In this document: positions 37,803 through 46,136 of the stretch, piece by piece
Layout of the letters: each line of letters starts with the position of its first letter
How positions within the stretch are numbered: the first letter of the stretch is position 1
Assembly (NCBI GenBank): GCA_019115335.1
Contig: DXDT01000188.1
Span: 1 to 46,136 of the forward strand
Reading direction: 5' to 3'
From: Candidatus Brachybacterium merdigallinarum
GTDB lineage: Bacteria; Actinomycetota; Actinomycetes; Actinomycetales; Dermabacteraceae
DNA: 46,136 nucleotides
The notes under the pieces: model-generated
The model's input: only the letters and a program-made list of their open reading frames with translations
What the model was told of the DNA's origin: nothing
The model's database searches: none
Translations under genes and position numbers: made by a program

Positions 37803-37987
37803 GGATCCATTCTGCACCCGCTCGCCCCGGAACGGGGTGTCCACCTGTCTGCCGCCGGGATGTCCGCTCTCGGGCGGGGACGCGCCGGGGCAGGGGGCGC
37901 TCGAGCGTCATGGCAGGATCGTTGACGGAGTCCTCGAGGGACATCGAGGCAGGGGACACCGGGACTGGACCGGTCTGGACAGGCCCC

Positions 37988-38032
37988 GAGACAGGACCCC
38001 CCGAGACAGGACCCACCGAGACAGGAGCCGGA
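37988..38032. repeat. Three tandem 15-bp repeats just upstream of moeA
   Basis: GAGACAGGACCCCCC GAGACAGGACCCACC GAGACAGGAGCCGGA. Confidence 0.85.
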
Positions 38033-38035
38033 GCG

Positions 38036-39316
38036 ATGGGCGTCCACGAGATGACGGCCTGGCAGTGGCGGGCCGAGCTGCGGGCCGAGCTGGCGCCGGC
38101 CCTGGCCCGTCGCCGCGCCCGCGACGGAGCGATCCAGGAGCTGCCTCCGGATGCTGCCCTGGGACGACACCTCGCGGCTGCGGTGGAAGCACCCGAGGAC
38201 CAGCCCGCCGTGCCGGTCTCCGCGATGGACGGCTTCGCGGTGCGCGCCGCTGATCTCTCCGCCGACGCCCCGGTCGAGCTCGTGGTCCGCGGAGAGCTGG
38301 CGGCCGCTCCGCAGCTCGGCCCGGCCCCGACCGTCGGCCCGGGGGAGGCGCTGCGGATCATGACCGGTGCCCCGGTGCCACCCAGCACGGACACCGTGGT
38401 CGAGGTCGAGCGCACCGATGTCGATCCCCACGGCGCACTGCCCTCCCGCATCCGGATCCGACCTGACGGCTCGGTGCGGCCCGGCCGGCATGTGCGGGGG
38501 ATCGGGGAGGAGATCGCCCGCGGCGACCTGCTCGCCGAGACCGGGGACCGGATCGGACCCGGCCTGATCGCTCTGGCGGCGACGCTCGGGATCCGCACCC
38601 TGCCGCTCGCGCGCCCGCCGCAGATCGCGGTCGTCGTCACCGGTGACGAAGTGGTCGACACGCGCAGTGGACCGGTGCAGGACATCGCCCCGGGGGCGGT
38701 GCGGGACTCCAACGGGACGATGCTCGCCGCCGCGATCACCGTGACCGGTGGCCGGGCCGAGCTGCGCACCACCGACGACGATCCGGCGCGGCTGCGGACC
38801 CTGCTCGACACCCTCGCCGAGGGGTCGGACCTGGTGCTGACCACCGGCGGAGTGGGCCACGGCGCCTTCGACGTGGTCAAGGCCGCGCTCGGTGATCGCG
38901 GTGCCGGCCTCTCCCGGTTCGAGCACCTGCGCCTGCGGCCCGGCGGCCCCCAGGGGTATGGGATGCACCCGAGCGGGACCCCGATGATCCACCTGCCCGG
39001 CACCCCCGTGGGGGCCCTGGTCGGCTTCCATCTGTTCGTCGCGCCGCTGCTGGGCCACGGGCGGATCGAGCGCGCCCGCTGGGATCAGGCCGGGGGAGCG
39101 GAGCCCCGCCCGAGTGGGCGGAGGGCCTGGTCGGGCCTGCAGGTGCTGCCGGGCCGACGGATCGAGGCCGCGCGTGGGCCGTCCCAGCCGCAGGTCGAGG
39201 TGGTGCCCGGGCGGCGCCTGGCCCCGTTCGGGCGCGCCGACTGCCTGCTGCTGCACGAGGAGGATGCAGCCTCGACCGACCGTTCCTGGGTGCCGGTCAT
39301 CGACCTGCGGGCCTGA
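38036..39316 (+). CDS. moeA: Molybdopterin molybdotransferase
   Basis: VPVSAMDGFAVRAADL...IMTGAPVPPSTDTVVEVE...VVVTGDEVVD...DSNGTMLAAAI...LTTGGVGHGAFDVVKAALG...HLPGTPVGALVGFHLFVAPLL. Confidence 0.88.
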   Translation: MGVHEMTAWQWRAELRAELAPALARRRARDGAIQELPPDAALGRHLAAAVEAPEDQPAVPVSAMDGFAVRAADLSADAPVELVVRGELAAAPQLGPAPTVGPGEALRIMTGAPVPPSTDTVVEVERTDVDPHGALPSRIRIRPDGSVRPGRHVRGIGEEIARGDLLAETGDRIGPGLIALAATLGIRTLPLARPPQIAVVVTGDEVVDTRSGPVQDIAPGAVRDSNGTMLAAAITVTGGRAELRTTDDDPARLRTLLDTLAEGSDLVLTTGGVGHGAFDVVKAALGDRGAGLSRFEHLRLRPGGPQGYGMHPSGTPMIHLPGTPVGALVGFHLFVAPLLGHGRIERARWDQAGGAEPRPSGRRAWSGLQVLPGRRIEAARGPSQPQVEVVPGRRLAPFGRADCLLLHEEDAASTDRSWVPVIDLRA

Positions 39317-39329
39317 GCCAGCTCACCGA

Positions 39330-39629
39330 TCAGCCCTTCAGGGAGCGGTCCAGGTTCGCCCTCGTCGCGTCCCGCTGCTGGGCGCGCTCGTGACGGCGGG
39401 CCAGGGCGCGGCGGGACCAGATCGTGATGGTGCGGACCGAGATGCCCAGCGCGTACCCCAGCGACAGCGCTGCGAGCCAGGCGCTGTAGTACCAGCCGGC
39501 GGCGATCACCAGCGGGATCGTCGCCAGCGCCGCGATCCAGGTGCCGATCCTGGCGCGCTCCAGCAGATCGCACAGGGCAAGGGCGATCGCCACGCCGAGC
39601 GCGAGGACGATACAGTGCACGATGGTCAC
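39330..39629 (-). CDS. Small membrane protein of unknown function
   Basis: 99 aa, three hydrophobic segments, MTIVHCIVLALGVAIALALCDLLERARIGTWIAALATIPLVIAAGWYY. Confidence 0.65.
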   Translation of the reverse strand: MTIVHCIVLALGVAIALALCDLLERARIGTWIAALATIPLVIAAGWYYSAWLAALSLGYALGISVRTITIWSRRALARRHERAQQRDATRANLDRSLKG

Positions 39630-39766
39630 GATTCGAGCATATCCTCATGCCTGAACGTGCGATCCGCACCTGTTTACGGCACAGTAGCCCGATGCAGGAC
39701 CGCCGAAGACGTCGGCAGCAGGGAAAGGACACCGCCTCATGCAGGACCGCGTGACGAGGAGCCGTC

Positions 39767-40759
39767 GTGGCTAGATTCATCGCCATCCGCACGCTCACGT
39801 ACCTGATCCTCGCGTTCGTCGCGACCAGCTTCGCCTACCTGCTGGCGGCCTCGCTGATGAACCCCGAAGCGGTGCTGTACCCCCCGATCGCGACCAACCC
39901 GGTCCCGGCCGAGACCGCGCAGCAGTACCTCAACGTGCGCAACGTCAACCCCGACACCCCCCTGTTCGAGCGCTACGCGACCTGGCTCGGCGGCCTGATC
40001 CGCGGCGACATGGGCCTGACCACCGGCACCGACCGCCAGCTGCTCGAGGTCACCGACGTGATCCTCTCGCGGGTCCCGATCAGTCTGCAGCTCGTGGTCA
40101 TCGGCACCGTCATCGGCACCGTCGCCGGCGTGGCGCTGGGCATGTGGGCCGCGGTCAACCGCAACGGGATCGGCGACCGCCTCTCCACCCTCCTGGCCTT
40201 CGTGGTGCTGTCCCTGCCCACCCCGGTCATCATCCTGACCGTCCAGCAGACCAACGAGTTCATCGGCAACCGCAGCGGATTCAAGCTGCCCGCCATCAAC
40301 CGCGTGAACCCGCTGCTGACCGAGGGCACCTGGGCCTATACCGAATATCAACTGCTCGCGCTGATCATGCCCACCATCGTGCTGGCGCTCGCCGGCGCCG
40401 CCTCCTACTCGCGGTACATGAAGGTCACCACCCTGGACGTGCTGGGCAGCGACTACCTGCGCACCGCCCGCGCGAAGGGCCTCACCCGCTCCCAGGCGAT
40501 GCGCCGCCACGGCCTGCGGATGGCGCTGATCCCGATGGGCCAGTACTTCGCCTTCGCCGTCGGCGCGGCGTTCACCGGCTCGCTGTTCGTCGAGCTGATG
40601 TTCAACTGGGAAGGGGTGGGCCGGTACGCGATCTCCTCGATCGCGCTGGCCGATGTCAACGGCACCGCCGGCGTGGTGCTCTACACGGCGGCCCTCACCC
40701 TGCTCTCCGCGACCTTCGCCGACATCCTGCAGGCCGCTCTCGACCCGAGGATCCGGTGA
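39767..40759 (+). CDS. Oligopeptide ABC transporter permease (OppB/DppB-like)
   Basis: MARFIAIRTLTYLILAFVATSFAYLLAASLMNP...TARAKGLTRSQAMRRHGLRMALIPMGQYFAFAVGAAFTGSLFVELMFNWEGVGRY. Confidence 0.93.
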   Translation: MARFIAIRTLTYLILAFVATSFAYLLAASLMNPEAVLYPPIATNPVPAETAQQYLNVRNVNPDTPLFERYATWLGGLIRGDMGLTTGTDRQLLEVTDVILSRVPISLQLVVIGTVIGTVAGVALGMWAAVNRNGIGDRLSTLLAFVVLSLPTPVIILTVQQTNEFIGNRSGFKLPAINRVNPLLTEGTWAYTEYQLLALIMPTIVLALAGAASYSRYMKVTTLDVLGSDYLRTARAKGLTRSQAMRRHGLRMALIPMGQYFAFAVGAAFTGSLFVELMFNWEGVGRYAISSIALADVNGTAGVVLYTAALTLLSATFADILQAALDPRIR

Positions 40760-40763
40760 TCTC

Positions 40764-41777
40764 ATGACGAACCCCTCTGACATGCGATCCACGGACGACG
40801 CCGCTCAGCTGGCCCACGAGACGGACCCCTCCGAGAACCCGCTGATGGGCAACCCGGACTACGCCCCCGGGGCGGAGGACGCGACGGCACCGCCCGGCGG
40901 TCCGGCCATCGAGTCGATGGGCCGCGGCGAGCTGCTGCGGCGCCGCTTCCTGCGCAGCCGCAGCGGCTGGGTCGGGATGGTGGTCTTCACGATCCTGGTG
41001 CTGATGGCGATCTTCGCGCCGATGTTCTACCAGTACGAGCCGTTCGACCGCGACCTGCGCAATGTGCTCTCCGGCCCCACCCAGTACCACTGGTTCGGGG
41101 TCGACGACCGCGGCTACGACATCTTCGCCCGCACCATGGAGGGCCTGCGGATCTCGCTGATGATCGGCATCGGCACCGCCGTGCTCACCTCGATCCTCGC
41201 CCTGCTGGTGGGCACCACCGCCGGGTTCGTCAGCGGCAAGGGCAAGTGGGGCGCCTTCGTCGACGGCGGCCTGGTCAACGTGATCAACCTGTTCCTGGTG
41301 ATCCCCTCGATGCTGCTGCTGATGCTGTTCAGCCCGATCCTGCAGCAGGCCACCTGGCTGTGGCTGATCCCGCTGCTGGCGCTGTTCGCCTGGATGCTCA
41401 CCGCCCGTGTGCTGCGGGCGATGACCCAGCAGCTCGTGCGGACCGAGTACGTCGAGGCCGCGAAGTTCATGGGCGTCAATCCCGTGGTCAGCATCGTCCG
41501 GCACATCATCCCCAACATCGCCAGCTGGATCATCATCGACACCACCCTCGGGGTCAGCGCCGCGATCCTCGGGGAGACCGGCCTGTCCTTCATCGGCTTC
41601 GGCATCCAGTACCCGAACGTGTCGCTGGGCACCGTGCTGCAGGAGTACAACATCGCCTATCCCCACACCTGGGTGCTGCCCGCGGCGGTGCTCGCCGCCC
41701 TGATCATCTCCATCAACCTGATGGGTGAAGCGCTGCGTGACGCCCTGGATCCGACCAGCGGCTCGAGCCGGATCTGA
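40764..41777 (+). CDS. Oligopeptide ABC transporter permease (OppC/DppC-like)
   Basis: LLRRRFLRSRSGWVGMVVFTILVLMAIFAPMF...HWFGVDDRGYDIFARTMEGLRISLMIGIG...GETGLSFIGFGIQYPNVSLG. Confidence 0.94.
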   Translation: MTNPSDMRSTDDAAQLAHETDPSENPLMGNPDYAPGAEDATAPPGGPAIESMGRGELLRRRFLRSRSGWVGMVVFTILVLMAIFAPMFYQYEPFDRDLRNVLSGPTQYHWFGVDDRGYDIFARTMEGLRISLMIGIGTAVLTSILALLVGTTAGFVSGKGKWGAFVDGGLVNVINLFLVIPSMLLLMLFSPILQQATWLWLIPLLALFAWMLTARVLRAMTQQLVRTEYVEAAKFMGVNPVVSIVRHIIPNIASWIIIDTTLGVSAAILGETGLSFIGFGIQYPNVSLGTVLQEYNIAYPHTWVLPAAVLAALIISINLMGEALRDALDPTSGSSRI

Positions 41778-41798
41778 GACGAGCCGAGGAGATCACCC

Positions 41799-43592
41799 AT
41801 GACTGAACCGATCCTGTCCGTGAGGGACCTCAGCGTCACCTTCCCCTCCGAGTACGGCACCGTCCAGGCCGTCAGGAACCTCTCCTACGACGTGCACAAG
41901 GGCGAGGCCCTCGCGATCGTCGGCGAATCCGGCTCCGGCAAGTCCGTCAGCTCCCTGGCGGTGATGGGGCTGCTGCCCCGCACCGCGACGATCAGCGGCG
42001 AGATCGACCTGCTGGGCCGGCAGATGTTCACCCTGAACGACAAGCAGCTCTCCGATCTGCGCGGCAACGTGCTCTCGATGGTCTTCCAGGACCCGCTCTC
42101 GGCCCTGACCCCGGTGTACACGGTGGGCAGCCAGATCGCCGAGGTCGTGCGGATCCACCATCCTGACGTGTCGAAGGAGCAGGCCCACGGCCGCGCGATC
42201 GAGCTGCTGGACGCGGTGGGGATCCCCGAGCCGCAGCGTCGCGCGAACCAGTACCCGCACGAGTTCTCCGGCGGCATGCGCCAGCGCGCCGTGATCGCGA
42301 TGGCGATCGCGAACGAGCCCGAGCTGATCATCGCCGACGAGCCCACCACCGCCCTGGACGTGACGATCCAGGCACAGGTGATGAGCCTGCTGAAGTCCGC
42401 CCAGGAGCTGCTGGGCGCCGCGACCATCCTGATCACGCACGATATGGGCGTGGTCGCCGGCTTCGCCGATCGCGTGCTGGTGATGAAGGACGCGCAGCTG
42501 GTCGAGACCGGTGGGGTCGACGACATCTTCTACCGGCCCCGCGAGGAGTACACCCGCAGCCTGCTCTCCGCCGTGCCCCGCGTGGACCTGCAGAAGTCGG
42601 GCACGACCGACTCCGGCAGCCAGAGCGTGGCCGGCACCGCCTTCCGCGCTCTCGCCCGCGAGGAGGGCGAGGTCGCCCCCCGCGAGCAGCGCTCGACGGT
42701 CCTCGAGGTCGAGGATCTCCAGCGGATCTACCCCATCACCAAGGGGGCGCTGGTGCGCCGCAAGGTCGGCGAGCAGCGTGCGGTCGACGGCATCTCCTTC
42801 GACATCCGCGAGGGGGAGTGCCTGGCCCTGGTCGGCGAGTCCGGCAGCGGGAAGACCACCACCCTGATGGAGATCATGCAGCTGCGCGCCCCGCAGAGCG
42901 GCGCGGTGCGCATCGACGGCAAGGACACCCGGGCCCTGTCCCGGGCCGAGCGCTCCGCGATGCGCGCCCGCGTGACCATGGTGTTCCAGGATCCGATGGC
43001 GTCCCTGGACCCGCGCATGCCGATCGGCGACATCCTCAAGGAGCCGATGCGGGTGCAGGGCTACAGCAAGCAGCGGATGGACGAGCGGGTGGACTGGCTG
43101 CTGCGGAACGTGGGGCTCACCCCGGAGCACGCCGCCCGCTATCCCACCGAGTTCTCCGGCGGGCAGCGGCAGCGCGTGGGCGTGGCCCGGGCGCTGGCCT
43201 GCGACCCGACGCTGATCGTGCTGGACGAGCCCACCTCGGCGCTGGACGTCACGGTGCAGGCCGGCGTGCTGGCCATGCTCGCGGACCTGCGCAACCGGCT
43301 CGGCGTGAGCTTCCTGTTCGTCTCCCACGACCTCTCGGTGGTCCGCCATATCTCGGATCGCATCGCGGTGATGAGGAACGGGAAGATCGTTGAGATCGGC
43401 GATACCGAGGAGGTGTTCACGAACCCGCAGCACGAGTACACCCGTGAGCTCCTCTCCGCCGTGCCGATCCCGGACCCGCAGATCGCCCGCAACCGGCGTC
43501 ACACCGAGATCGACACGGACGCCTTCGCGCGCAGTCACGTGGATGCCACGACCGACGGCGACGCCCCCGAGGGGGAGGGCCTCGCAGGCTGA
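41799..43592 (+). CDS. Dual ATP-binding oligopeptide ABC ATPase (fused DppD-DppF)
   Basis: Two Walker A (GESGSGKSV, GESGSGKTT) and two signature motifs (FSGGMRQR, FSGGQRQR) in 597 aa. Confidence 0.96.
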   Translation: MTEPILSVRDLSVTFPSEYGTVQAVRNLSYDVHKGEALAIVGESGSGKSVSSLAVMGLLPRTATISGEIDLLGRQMFTLNDKQLSDLRGNVLSMVFQDPLSALTPVYTVGSQIAEVVRIHHPDVSKEQAHGRAIELLDAVGIPEPQRRANQYPHEFSGGMRQRAVIAMAIANEPELIIADEPTTALDVTIQAQVMSLLKSAQELLGAATILITHDMGVVAGFADRVLVMKDAQLVETGGVDDIFYRPREEYTRSLLSAVPRVDLQKSGTTDSGSQSVAGTAFRALAREEGEVAPREQRSTVLEVEDLQRIYPITKGALVRRKVGEQRAVDGISFDIREGECLALVGESGSGKTTTLMEIMQLRAPQSGAVRIDGKDTRALSRAERSAMRARVTMVFQDPMASLDPRMPIGDILKEPMRVQGYSKQRMDERVDWLLRNVGLTPEHAARYPTEFSGGQRQRVGVARALACDPTLIVLDEPTSALDVTVQAGVLAMLADLRNRLGVSFLFVSHDLSVVRHISDRIAVMRNGKIVEIGDTEEVFTNPQHEYTRELLSAVPIPDPQIARNRRHTEIDTDAFARSHVDATTDGDAPEGEGLAG

Positions 43593-43613
43593 GCCGGCGG
43601 TCGGGGCCGTGAG

Positions 43614-43651
43614 GTCTCGAACATGTGACCAGGAGGTTGCGAACCGGTAAC
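43614..43651. promoter_or_regulatory. Array of four GTNNC pentamers at exact 11-bp period; OmpR-family (GlnR/MtrA/PhoP-like) operator candidate
   Basis: + strand GTCTC-n6-GTGAC-n6-GTTGC-n6-GTAAC (43614, 43625, 43636, 43647); minus strand GTTAC-n6-GCAAC-n6-GTCAC-n6-GAGAC. Confidence 0.6.
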
Positions 43652-43690
43652 GGGCGGCGGCTATGAGGTTTCGCACGGGTGGAGTGTCCC

Positions 43691-43696
43691 TAGACT
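43691..43696 (+). promoter_or_regulatory. -10 element upstream of the peptide-binding protein gene
   Basis: TAGACT with a weak -35 (GTTTCG/TTTCGC) 16-17 bp upstream. Confidence 0.5.
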
Positions 43697-43805
43697 GTCC
43701 GCACCGCGCATGACGATGTGCCACGGCGGACATCTCCCCAGCGCGACGCATCATCACACCTGGCGGTACCGGCGATCCCGGTGCCGTGACTGAATGGAGA
43801 AACAC

Positions 43806-45542
43806 ATGCGATTCTCGCGGCGTTCCATGCTCGGAGCAACAGCGATGACGGCCTCGCTGGTGACCCTGGCGGCCTGCAGCCAGGACCCGGGCACCGGCGG
43901 GGGTGACGGGGGTTCCGACGGGGGCGGCGACGGCGGCGAAGCCATCGACGCGACCACCAACGACATCAACGCCACCGAGCGCGACGGCATGGGCCAGGGC
44001 GGCGTGCTCCGCATCGCCAACAACGCCTTCCCGGCGAACTGGAACCCGTGGCACTCGGACGGCAACGAGAAGAACACCTCCGACATCCTGCGTGCGATCT
44101 ACCCGCTGGAGCTGTGGTACTCGGATGCCGCCGGTGAGGTCACGGCGAACCCGCACTACCTCACGCGGATGGAACTCACCTCCGAGGATCCCCAGATCAT
44201 CGAGATCGAGCTCAGGGAAGGCATGACCTGGTCGGACGGCACCCCCATCGACTGGACCTCCATCGCTAACGTGTTCAACACGATGAACGGCACTCAGGAG
44301 GAGTACGGCATCGCCTCCTCCGAGGGCTACGACAAGGTCGAGTCCGTCGAGCAGGGCGAGAACGAGCTCACCGCCGTGGTCACCTTCGCCGAGCCCTACG
44401 CCGACTGGATGGGGCTTCCCGGGATCGCACCGGACTCCCTCGTGGAATCTGCCGACGCCTTCAACTCCGGCTGGCTCGCGGAGCCGCTGGTGACCGCCGG
44501 CCCGTTCAAGATCGGCCAGATCGACGCCACCAACCGCACCGTGCTCATCGAGCCGGACGAGAACTGGTGGGGCGACGCCCCGTTCCTGGACCAGGTCCTG
44601 TTCACCACCATCGAGGATCCCTCCGCGATGGCCACCAGCTTCCAGAACGGCCAGCTGGACGTCATCGAGACCACGGTCGCCGCCACCTACACCGTGGTCG
44701 AGCCGATGATCGGCAACGGGGCGACCCTGCGCCGCGCCGCCGGACCCAACTGGACCCACATCACCCTCAACGGGGTCGAGGGCCGCGCCCTCAACGACGT
44801 CGCGGTGCGTCAGGCGATCCACAAGGCGATCGACCGCGAGGAGGTGTTCCTCTCGGTGACCGCGGCCCTGCCGTACCCGGAGAACACCGAGCCCCTGAAC
44901 AACCACCTCCTGATGACCAACCAGGAGGGCTACCAGGACAACGCGGGGGACCTCGGCACCTACGACCCCGAGGGTGCCAAGGCGCTGCTCGAGGAGGCCG
45001 GCTACACCTTCGACGACGCGGGCCTCGCCTCCAAGGACGGCGCCCCGATCGAGATCAACTACGTCTACAACGACGGCTCCGCGACCAACGAGGCCGTGGT
45101 CCCGATCGTGCAGGAGGCCCTCGCAGCCATCGGCATCACGATGAACGTGCAGACCGTCCCGCCCACGGACCTGTTCACCCAGTACGTGATCCCCGGCGAC
45201 TTCGACCTCACCCTGTTCGGCTGGAACGGCACCCCGATCCTGTCCTCGGGCGATTCGATCTGGAAGACCGGCGGCGAGCAGAACTTCGGCCAGGTCAGTG
45301 ACCCGGAGTCCGACGACCTGCTGAACCAGGCCGCGGTCGAGACCGATCACGAGGCGCGCCTCGACCTGATCAACCAGGCCGATGCCGTCATCTGGCAGTC
45401 CGCCGGGGTGATCCCGCTGTGGCAGGCCTACGACTTCTTCGTCCAGCACGACGACCTCGCGAACTATGGTGCGTGGGGCTTCGAGAGCCCGGACTGGACC
45501 AAGATCGGCTACGTCGCCGGCTCGGACAAGCTGTCCGCCTGA
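43806..45542 (+). CDS. ABC transporter substrate-binding lipoprotein, family 5 (peptide)
   Basis: MRFSRRSMLGATAMTASLVTLAAC lipobox; SBP_bac_5-type LREGMTWSDGTPIDW...AGPFKIGQID...DVAVRQAIHKAIDREEV (alternative ATG at 43794). Confidence 0.94.
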   Translation: MRFSRRSMLGATAMTASLVTLAACSQDPGTGGGDGGSDGGGDGGEAIDATTNDINATERDGMGQGGVLRIANNAFPANWNPWHSDGNEKNTSDILRAIYPLELWYSDAAGEVTANPHYLTRMELTSEDPQIIEIELREGMTWSDGTPIDWTSIANVFNTMNGTQEEYGIASSEGYDKVESVEQGENELTAVVTFAEPYADWMGLPGIAPDSLVESADAFNSGWLAEPLVTAGPFKIGQIDATNRTVLIEPDENWWGDAPFLDQVLFTTIEDPSAMATSFQNGQLDVIETTVAATYTVVEPMIGNGATLRRAAGPNWTHITLNGVEGRALNDVAVRQAIHKAIDREEVFLSVTAALPYPENTEPLNNHLLMTNQEGYQDNAGDLGTYDPEGAKALLEEAGYTFDDAGLASKDGAPIEINYVYNDGSATNEAVVPIVQEALAAIGITMNVQTVPPTDLFTQYVIPGDFDLTLFGWNGTPILSSGDSIWKTGGEQNFGQVSDPESDDLLNQAAVETDHEARLDLINQADAVIWQSAGVIPLWQAYDFFVQHDDLANYGAWGFESPDWTKIGYVAGSDKLSA

Positions 45543-45659: not shown

Positions 45660-46136
45660 ATGAGCACGAGTCCTGAGACGGAGGCGCCCGGCAACGAGAC
45701 GGCGCCCCTGATCCGCGAGCGCGCGATCCCTGATGACCGTCTGCAGCGCACCGAGGGCTCGGAGGTCGCCCTCGAGGATCCCGCCGACCAGCAGCGGTAC
45801 CTGCGGCAGATGCGGCTGCCGCAGCTGGGCGCAGGCGGCCAACGACGGCTCGGGGCGGCCCGCGTCGCGGTGATCGGCGCCGGTGGCCTCGGGGCTCCGG
45901 TGCTGACGTACCTCGCCGCCGCGGGCATCGGTGAGATCACCCTGTTCGACCCGGACACCGTCGACGAGACGAACCTGCACCGGCAGGTTCTGTTCACCGG
46001 GGAGGACGTCGGGCGCTCCAAGGCGGTCGCTGCCGCCGAGCACCTGCACGCCCTGAACCCCCAGGTGCGGGTCAGCGCCGTGGTCGATGCGCTCACCCCC
46101 CGCAATGCGCTCGAGCTGCTGGCGGGCCATGACCTG
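45660..46136 (+). CDS. moeB: ThiF/MoeB family adenylyltransferase (3' end outside window)
   Basis: Open frame to window end: MSTSPETEAPG...QQRYLRQMRLPQLGAGGQRRLGAARVAVIGAGGLGAPVLTYLAAAGIGEITLFDPDTVDETNLHRQVLFTGEDVGRSKA; absent from the supplied ORF track. Confidence 0.92.
   Translation, partial: MSTSPETEAPGNETAPLIRERAIPDDRLQRTEGSEVALEDPADQQRYLRQMRLPQLGAGGQRRLGAARVAVIGAGGLGAPVLTYLAAAGIGEITLFDPDTVDETNLHRQVLFTGEDVGRSKAVAAAEHLHALNPQVRVSAVVDALTPRNALELLAGHDL

Follow-up and report, generated by a model that had tools for sequence, protein, structure and literature searches.

The opp cluster and its internal promoter

The window, by which is meant the whole stretch of 46,136 nucleotides that was analysed, contains an opp cluster (39767-45542) situated between a MoeA gene (37910-39316) and a ThiF/MoeB-type gene (45660-46136). 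The cluster comprises OppB/OppC-type permeases (39767-41777), a fused OppD-OppF-type ABC ATPase (41799..43592, plus strand) and a gene for a lipoprotein-like family-5 peptide/solute-binding protein (SBP_bac_5, hereafter SBP; 43806..45542, plus strand). The start codon of the latter is placed at ATG 43806 and not at 43794 by orthologue fit, and its ribosome-binding site GGAG (43796..43799, plus strand) is kept in all aligned orthologues. Upstream of oppB and divergent from it, the genus has a small membrane-protein gene of approximately 118 aa (HLLVLALGIVAAI...; L220-L231, about 300-750), which is located in the window at about 39340-39640 on the minus strand. The flanks of the cluster hold Moco genes (moaA, moaD, moeA-like) in most relatives and groEL in three others. 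A dedicated local regulator was considered and rejected, as conserved regulator genes were not observed next to the cluster, and a global regulator is therefore expected.

Between the ATPase stop (43592) and the SBP start lies an array of four GTNNC pentamers on the plus strand with an exact 11-bp period. An earlier note on this DNA had placed these at 43614, 43625, 43636 and 43647, and all four positions were confirmed. The outermost half-site GTCTC (43614..43618; 7-mer TCTCGAA, MtrA-matrix score 8.2) and the second, GTGAC (43625..43629; 7-mer TGACCAG), are both species-specific, while the inner pair, GTTGC at 43636 and GTAAC at 43647, forms a core GTTGCGAACCGGTAAC (43636..43651, plus strand) consisting of the two half-sites TTGCGAA and TAACGGG, 11 bp apart. 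The fourfold pattern occurs once in the window against 0.01 expected from dinucleotide shuffles. A genome scan for it, as proposed in the earlier note, found it to be rare, with two occurrences in 3.05 Mb, but alone not beyond chance, as the reversed control pattern occurs once. What raises the array above chance is the conservation of its last two pentamers and the spacer between them.

The same note had reported a GTTTC at 43668 and a TAGACT at 43691, and both are present there. The former coincides with a weak -35-like hexamer predicted from the alignment (GTTTCG, 43668..43673, plus strand; several relatives have a GTGTCG-like hexamer), 17 bp ahead of the -10 hexamer TAGACT (43691..43696, plus strand), and is less likely to be a fifth half-site. 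The -10 hexamer starts 39 bp past the core and reads TAGACT, CAGACT, TATGCT or TACACT among 16 loci. With a putative transcription start site (TSS) near 43703, the core would be centred at approximately -59.5, upstream of the -35, a position which suits activation. The predicted 5′ UTR is 103 nt long (43703..43805, plus strand) and 103-110 nt in Brachybacterium relatives. It may form two hairpins on the plus strand, one at 43715..43734 (GATGT...ACATC, in relatives GACC-AYGGW-GGTC) and one at 43764..43786, directly before the ribosome-binding site (CGGTACCGG/CCGGTGCCG). Both recur in the UTRs of L002-L014 with weak or slight covariation, and folding of the UTR as a whole was no better than that of shuffles (z -0.64). 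A riboswitch in this UTR was rejected, there being no Rfam match and little covariation in the hairpins.

Conservation of the core in orthologues

The orthologue set consisted of 17 Brachybacterium genomes including the window's own (60-100% identity), from among 38 genomes of the genus, together with an eighteenth orthologue (66% identity) on a contig labelled Microbacterium halophytorum. The core GTTGCRAANNRRTAAC is found upstream of the same family-5 SBP gene in 16 of these 18 (15 Brachybacterium and the one Microbacterium), with a mean column identity in the alignment of 0.92 inside the box vs 0.48-0.49 in the flanks. It has eight nearly fixed bp, followed by 2-3 variable bp and then RTAAC. 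Its first half-site is an invariant GTTGC in all loci, and its second is of the RTAACA/TAACRSS type, reading ATAAC in four orthologues. A direct repeat of at least two half-sites at a period of about 11 bp is present in 16/18 orthologues. The orthologues from G012 and G017 are without the core and without the promoter altogether. The conservation in orthologous promoters on which the earlier note had staked its reading extends to the last two pentamers and not to the first two, GTNNC being present at -11 of the core in 1/16 core-bearing loci and at -22 in 2/16. As judged from these alignments, the four-pentamer array is specific to the species of the window, while two of its half-sites are conserved.

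Allowing at most one mismatch, GTTGCRAANNRRTAACA was matched in 16 places of the 38 genus genomes, 15 of these being the SBP promoter. Matches elsewhere in the genus with up to two mismatches were examined and looked like chance, and within two mismatches the exact core has no further copy in the window's own genome. The distance from core to -10 is 38-40 bp in all 16 loci, and the core persists while the neighbours of the opp cluster change from Moco genes to groEL. Since the core is kept in 16/18 orthologues at this fixed distance, the internal promoter is real as a conserved sequence. The suggestion that the solute-binding gene has its own promoter inside the opp cluster is therefore supported, both by the conservation of core and -10 and by their spacing.

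Fit of the core to MtrA

Eight proteins with an OmpR-type DNA-binding domain (Trans_reg_C) were identified in the window's genome (81% complete). One of these is MtrA, a regulator of cell-envelope stress whose system is known to control cell-wall and division genes, scoring 380 bits against a cut-off of 300 with the curated NCBIfam model, and mtrA lies over this cut-off in 37/38 genus genomes, the window's own included. A 2026 paper reports 14 Streptomyces venezuelae MtrA half-sites bound by purified MtrA in SPR (PMC13189361). In these SPR-verified half-sites T1 and C4 are invariant, and they include TTGCGAA (bldM/whiD) and TGACAGG (PMC13189361). A paired matrix was made from these published half-sites alone, with TTGCGAA left out for ranking. 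With this matrix the core ranked first of 566 positions/strands in 13 of the 16 promoters, and second, third and eighth in the remaining three. In the window species it ranked third of 566, the two ahead of it being overlapping pairs within the same array, while the two core-less orthologues have no comparable MtrA-matrix site. All four half-sites of the window score, and the array beats every one of 459,122 background positions, although these come from other actinobacterial loci, are mostly coding and may flatter the p-values. Because its four-half-site score exceeds all background, the window array has the appearance of an extended MtrA array that has grown on the conserved two-site core. 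It should be mentioned that MtrA recognises a loose motif, which overlaps with the motifs of GlnR and AfsQ1 (PMC6988585). No MtrA-type core site was found before mtrA itself in the 29 mtrA loci scanned.

MtrA-type sites also appear elsewhere in the genus. The pattern RTRACA-n5-GTAAYT with at most one mismatch has ten matches in the window's genome and none with reversed controls; an NlpC/P60 gene is preceded by two of them and a BCCT transporter gene by one, though chance probably accounts for some of these matches. The NlpC/P60 orthologues retain ATAACAAYNGYGTAAYTA-like sites, and rpf promoters contain GTCACGAGCCTGTAACG, GTCACGCGCAGGTAACG and similar sites. The gene classes NlpC/P60, rpf and BCCT transporter are reported MtrA targets in Corynebacterium glutamicum or mycobacteria. 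As the rpf sites were picked with an MtrA-like filter, they serve as vocabulary and are no independent proof, and for the same reason a matrix built from them was discarded as evidence. A further feature of the NlpC/P60 gene (L204, L216, L218) is a long, strongly conserved leader after its MtrA-type site, which recalls the c-di-AMP riboswitch without an Rfam match at the gathering threshold.

The core beyond the genus

The exact core was searched for in 396 genomes of the order and in 395 of the class. Controls gave about 14 matches in the order, so that a single match there may be chance, while conserved groups are not. One other genus has the core in four genomes (L338-L341), upstream of an SBP_bac_5 gene that heads an opp operon and is not orthologous (25% identity), and in two further genomes (L342, L345) it stands in reverse orientation before SBP_bac_5 genes. 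It is also present (GTTGCGAAYAGGTAAC) approximately 150 bp before a DUF3071 gene, SepH by sequence, in 12 genomes of 6-11 Mb from one genus (L352-L363), which is probably Streptomyces. In these sepH promoters the 11-bp period continues into a third half-site (GTTGC-GTAAC-ATAAC). sepH has been reported to be a target of WhiAB and is presumed to have a further promoter independent of WhiAB (PMC7968930). The literature searched gave no link between MtrA and this gene.

Proposed regulation and comparison with known systems

The core is probably an MtrA-binding activator element belonging to a separate SBP promoter. This reading is built on what was computed, namely sequence, spacing, conservation, motif fit, mtrA presence and glnR absence, from which MtrA occupancy, activation rather than repression, the TSS and the inducing signal have been inferred. 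Phosphorylated MtrA, the response regulator of MtrAB, would bind head-to-tail to half-sites one helical turn (11 bp) apart, namely to the conserved pair of half-sites (TTGCGAA, TAACRSS) with its centre near -60 and, in the window species, to four. From a position upstream of the weak -35 (GTTTCG), on a face of the DNA shared with RNA polymerase, it would bring the polymerase to the TAGACT promoter. The outcome would be a binding protein with its own MtrAB-responsive expression, apart from that of the upstream permease and ATPase genes. There is no similar site before oppB, so that activation by MtrAB would probably be confined to the binding-protein gene.

The promoter architecture is a known one, and its target appears to be new. 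Like the Streptomyces MtrA sites (PMC13189361, PMC5650626), the core has tandem half-sites with a spacer of 5-6 nt, and its TTGCGAA is identical to the verified bldM/whiD half-site. Its location near -60 also resembles the activator placing at S. venezuelae whiI and ssgB, where MtrA sites lie at -55 (PMC13189361). However, the target in Brachybacterium is a peptide-binding protein, GTTGC is fixed and the species are without sporulation. The C. glutamicum MtrA site, (A/G)TAACAATttn(A/G)TAACAAT, is a direct repeat of 8 bp whose copies are joined by a 3-bp linker, and MtrA activates there from upstream of the -35 (PMC3353115). The 11-bp direct repeat, the 8-bp half-sites and the placing upstream of the -35 are shared with the core, and its second half-site fits RTAACA, whereas the first is a partial match (GTTGCGAA here vs RTAACAAT). 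In the literature searched, neither MtrA work in Brachybacterium nor a published link between MtrA and a peptide transporter was found.

The earlier note had taken the array for an OmpR-family operator of GlnR, MtrA or PhoP type. Its direct-repeat site stands, with MtrA as the candidate, while the other two regulators are not supported. By letters alone MtrA and GlnR are inseparable here and it is the absence of the glnR gene that separates them. The minus strand of the core, GTTAC-n6-GCAAC, agrees in 9/10 positions with the M. smegmatis GlnR box t/gTAAC-n6-Gc/aAAC (PMC10704036) and has the a-b pair GTNAC-n6-GNAAC; with actinomycete GlnR boxes (PMC10704036) the window species shares these letters, the 11-bp period and an a-b-a-b tetrad. 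Nevertheless, when the 38 genus genomes were screened for the GlnR N-terminal domain (PF21695), just three exceeded the cut-off, all of which look like genuine GlnR and one of which (G016) carries the core. Of the 15 core-bearing Brachybacterium genomes, 14 are without glnR, and 13 of these 14 are at least 99% complete. A GlnR box giving nitrogen control of peptide uptake is thus largely refuted for the genus and must be considered extremely unlikely. PhoP boxes (GTTCACC-type) have the same 11-bp direct-repeat architecture, but the core reaches 6-7/14 of their consensus positions and each promoter offers 4-36 better places, so that PhoP control was rejected for its poor fit.

Another OmpR-family regulator with near-identical half-sites could also bind the core and control peptide uptake, candidates being a further response regulator, a receiver-less winged-helix protein such as that at L037 or a GlnR replacement. 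The window's genome has seven further Trans_reg_C proteins, and in other families SBP_bac_5 genes that are not orthologous are likewise preceded by the core, as a peptide-uptake regulator would predict. The specificity could be that of another such protein, given that GTTGC is fixed whereas other MtrA-type sites in the genus are mostly RTNAC, and together with the conserved spacer bases this suggests a narrower specificity than that of MtrA. However, the core before the cell-division gene sepH in 12 genomes suits MtrA better and the SPR-based MtrA matrix by itself picks out the core, which leaves such a regulator a not very likely reader. It is quite unlikely that the core is recognised as an inverted repeat, GTTGC-n6-GTAAC (GTTRC...GYAAC), by a dimeric repressor or activator outside the OmpR family. 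The GTT...AAC symmetry and the reversed core before two SBP_bac_5 genes of other groups would agree with this, but ATAAC in four orthologues breaks the inner pair while leaving the direct-repeat half-site intact, and the continuation of half-sites at an 11-bp period past the core (four here, and at sepH) is not predicted by it. There is very little likelihood that the element acts otherwise, in a UP-like or architectural role, or that the array beyond the core is a functionless coincidence of letters. Although the bare fourfold pattern is at chance level genome-wide and the outer two half-sites are unconserved, core conservation is far above that of the flanks at a fixed distance from the promoter, the MtrA matrix gives a score to each of the four half-sites in the window species, and for a UP element the core is insufficiently A+T-rich.

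If MtrA does drive this promoter, peptide uptake would join cell-wall hydrolases, osmoprotectant transporters and division genes under the shared control of one conserved envelope-sensing system. More tentatively, GTTGCGAA-n3-RTAAC might mark a regulon conserved among actinobacteria, either distinct from that of MtrA or forming part of it, which couples peptide uptake, by unrelated family-5 binding proteins of several families, and cell division (sepH); this is possible rather than probable. As the core also stands before sepH and before peptide-binding genes unrelated to this one, there is a short list of promoters for testing, with Streptomyces among the testable cases, for which MtrA ChIP-seq data exist. 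It is also worth mentioning the contig labelled Microbacterium halophytorum (L227), on which the SBP at 66% identity has the core and promoter included, suggesting that the cluster was transferred together with its promoter.
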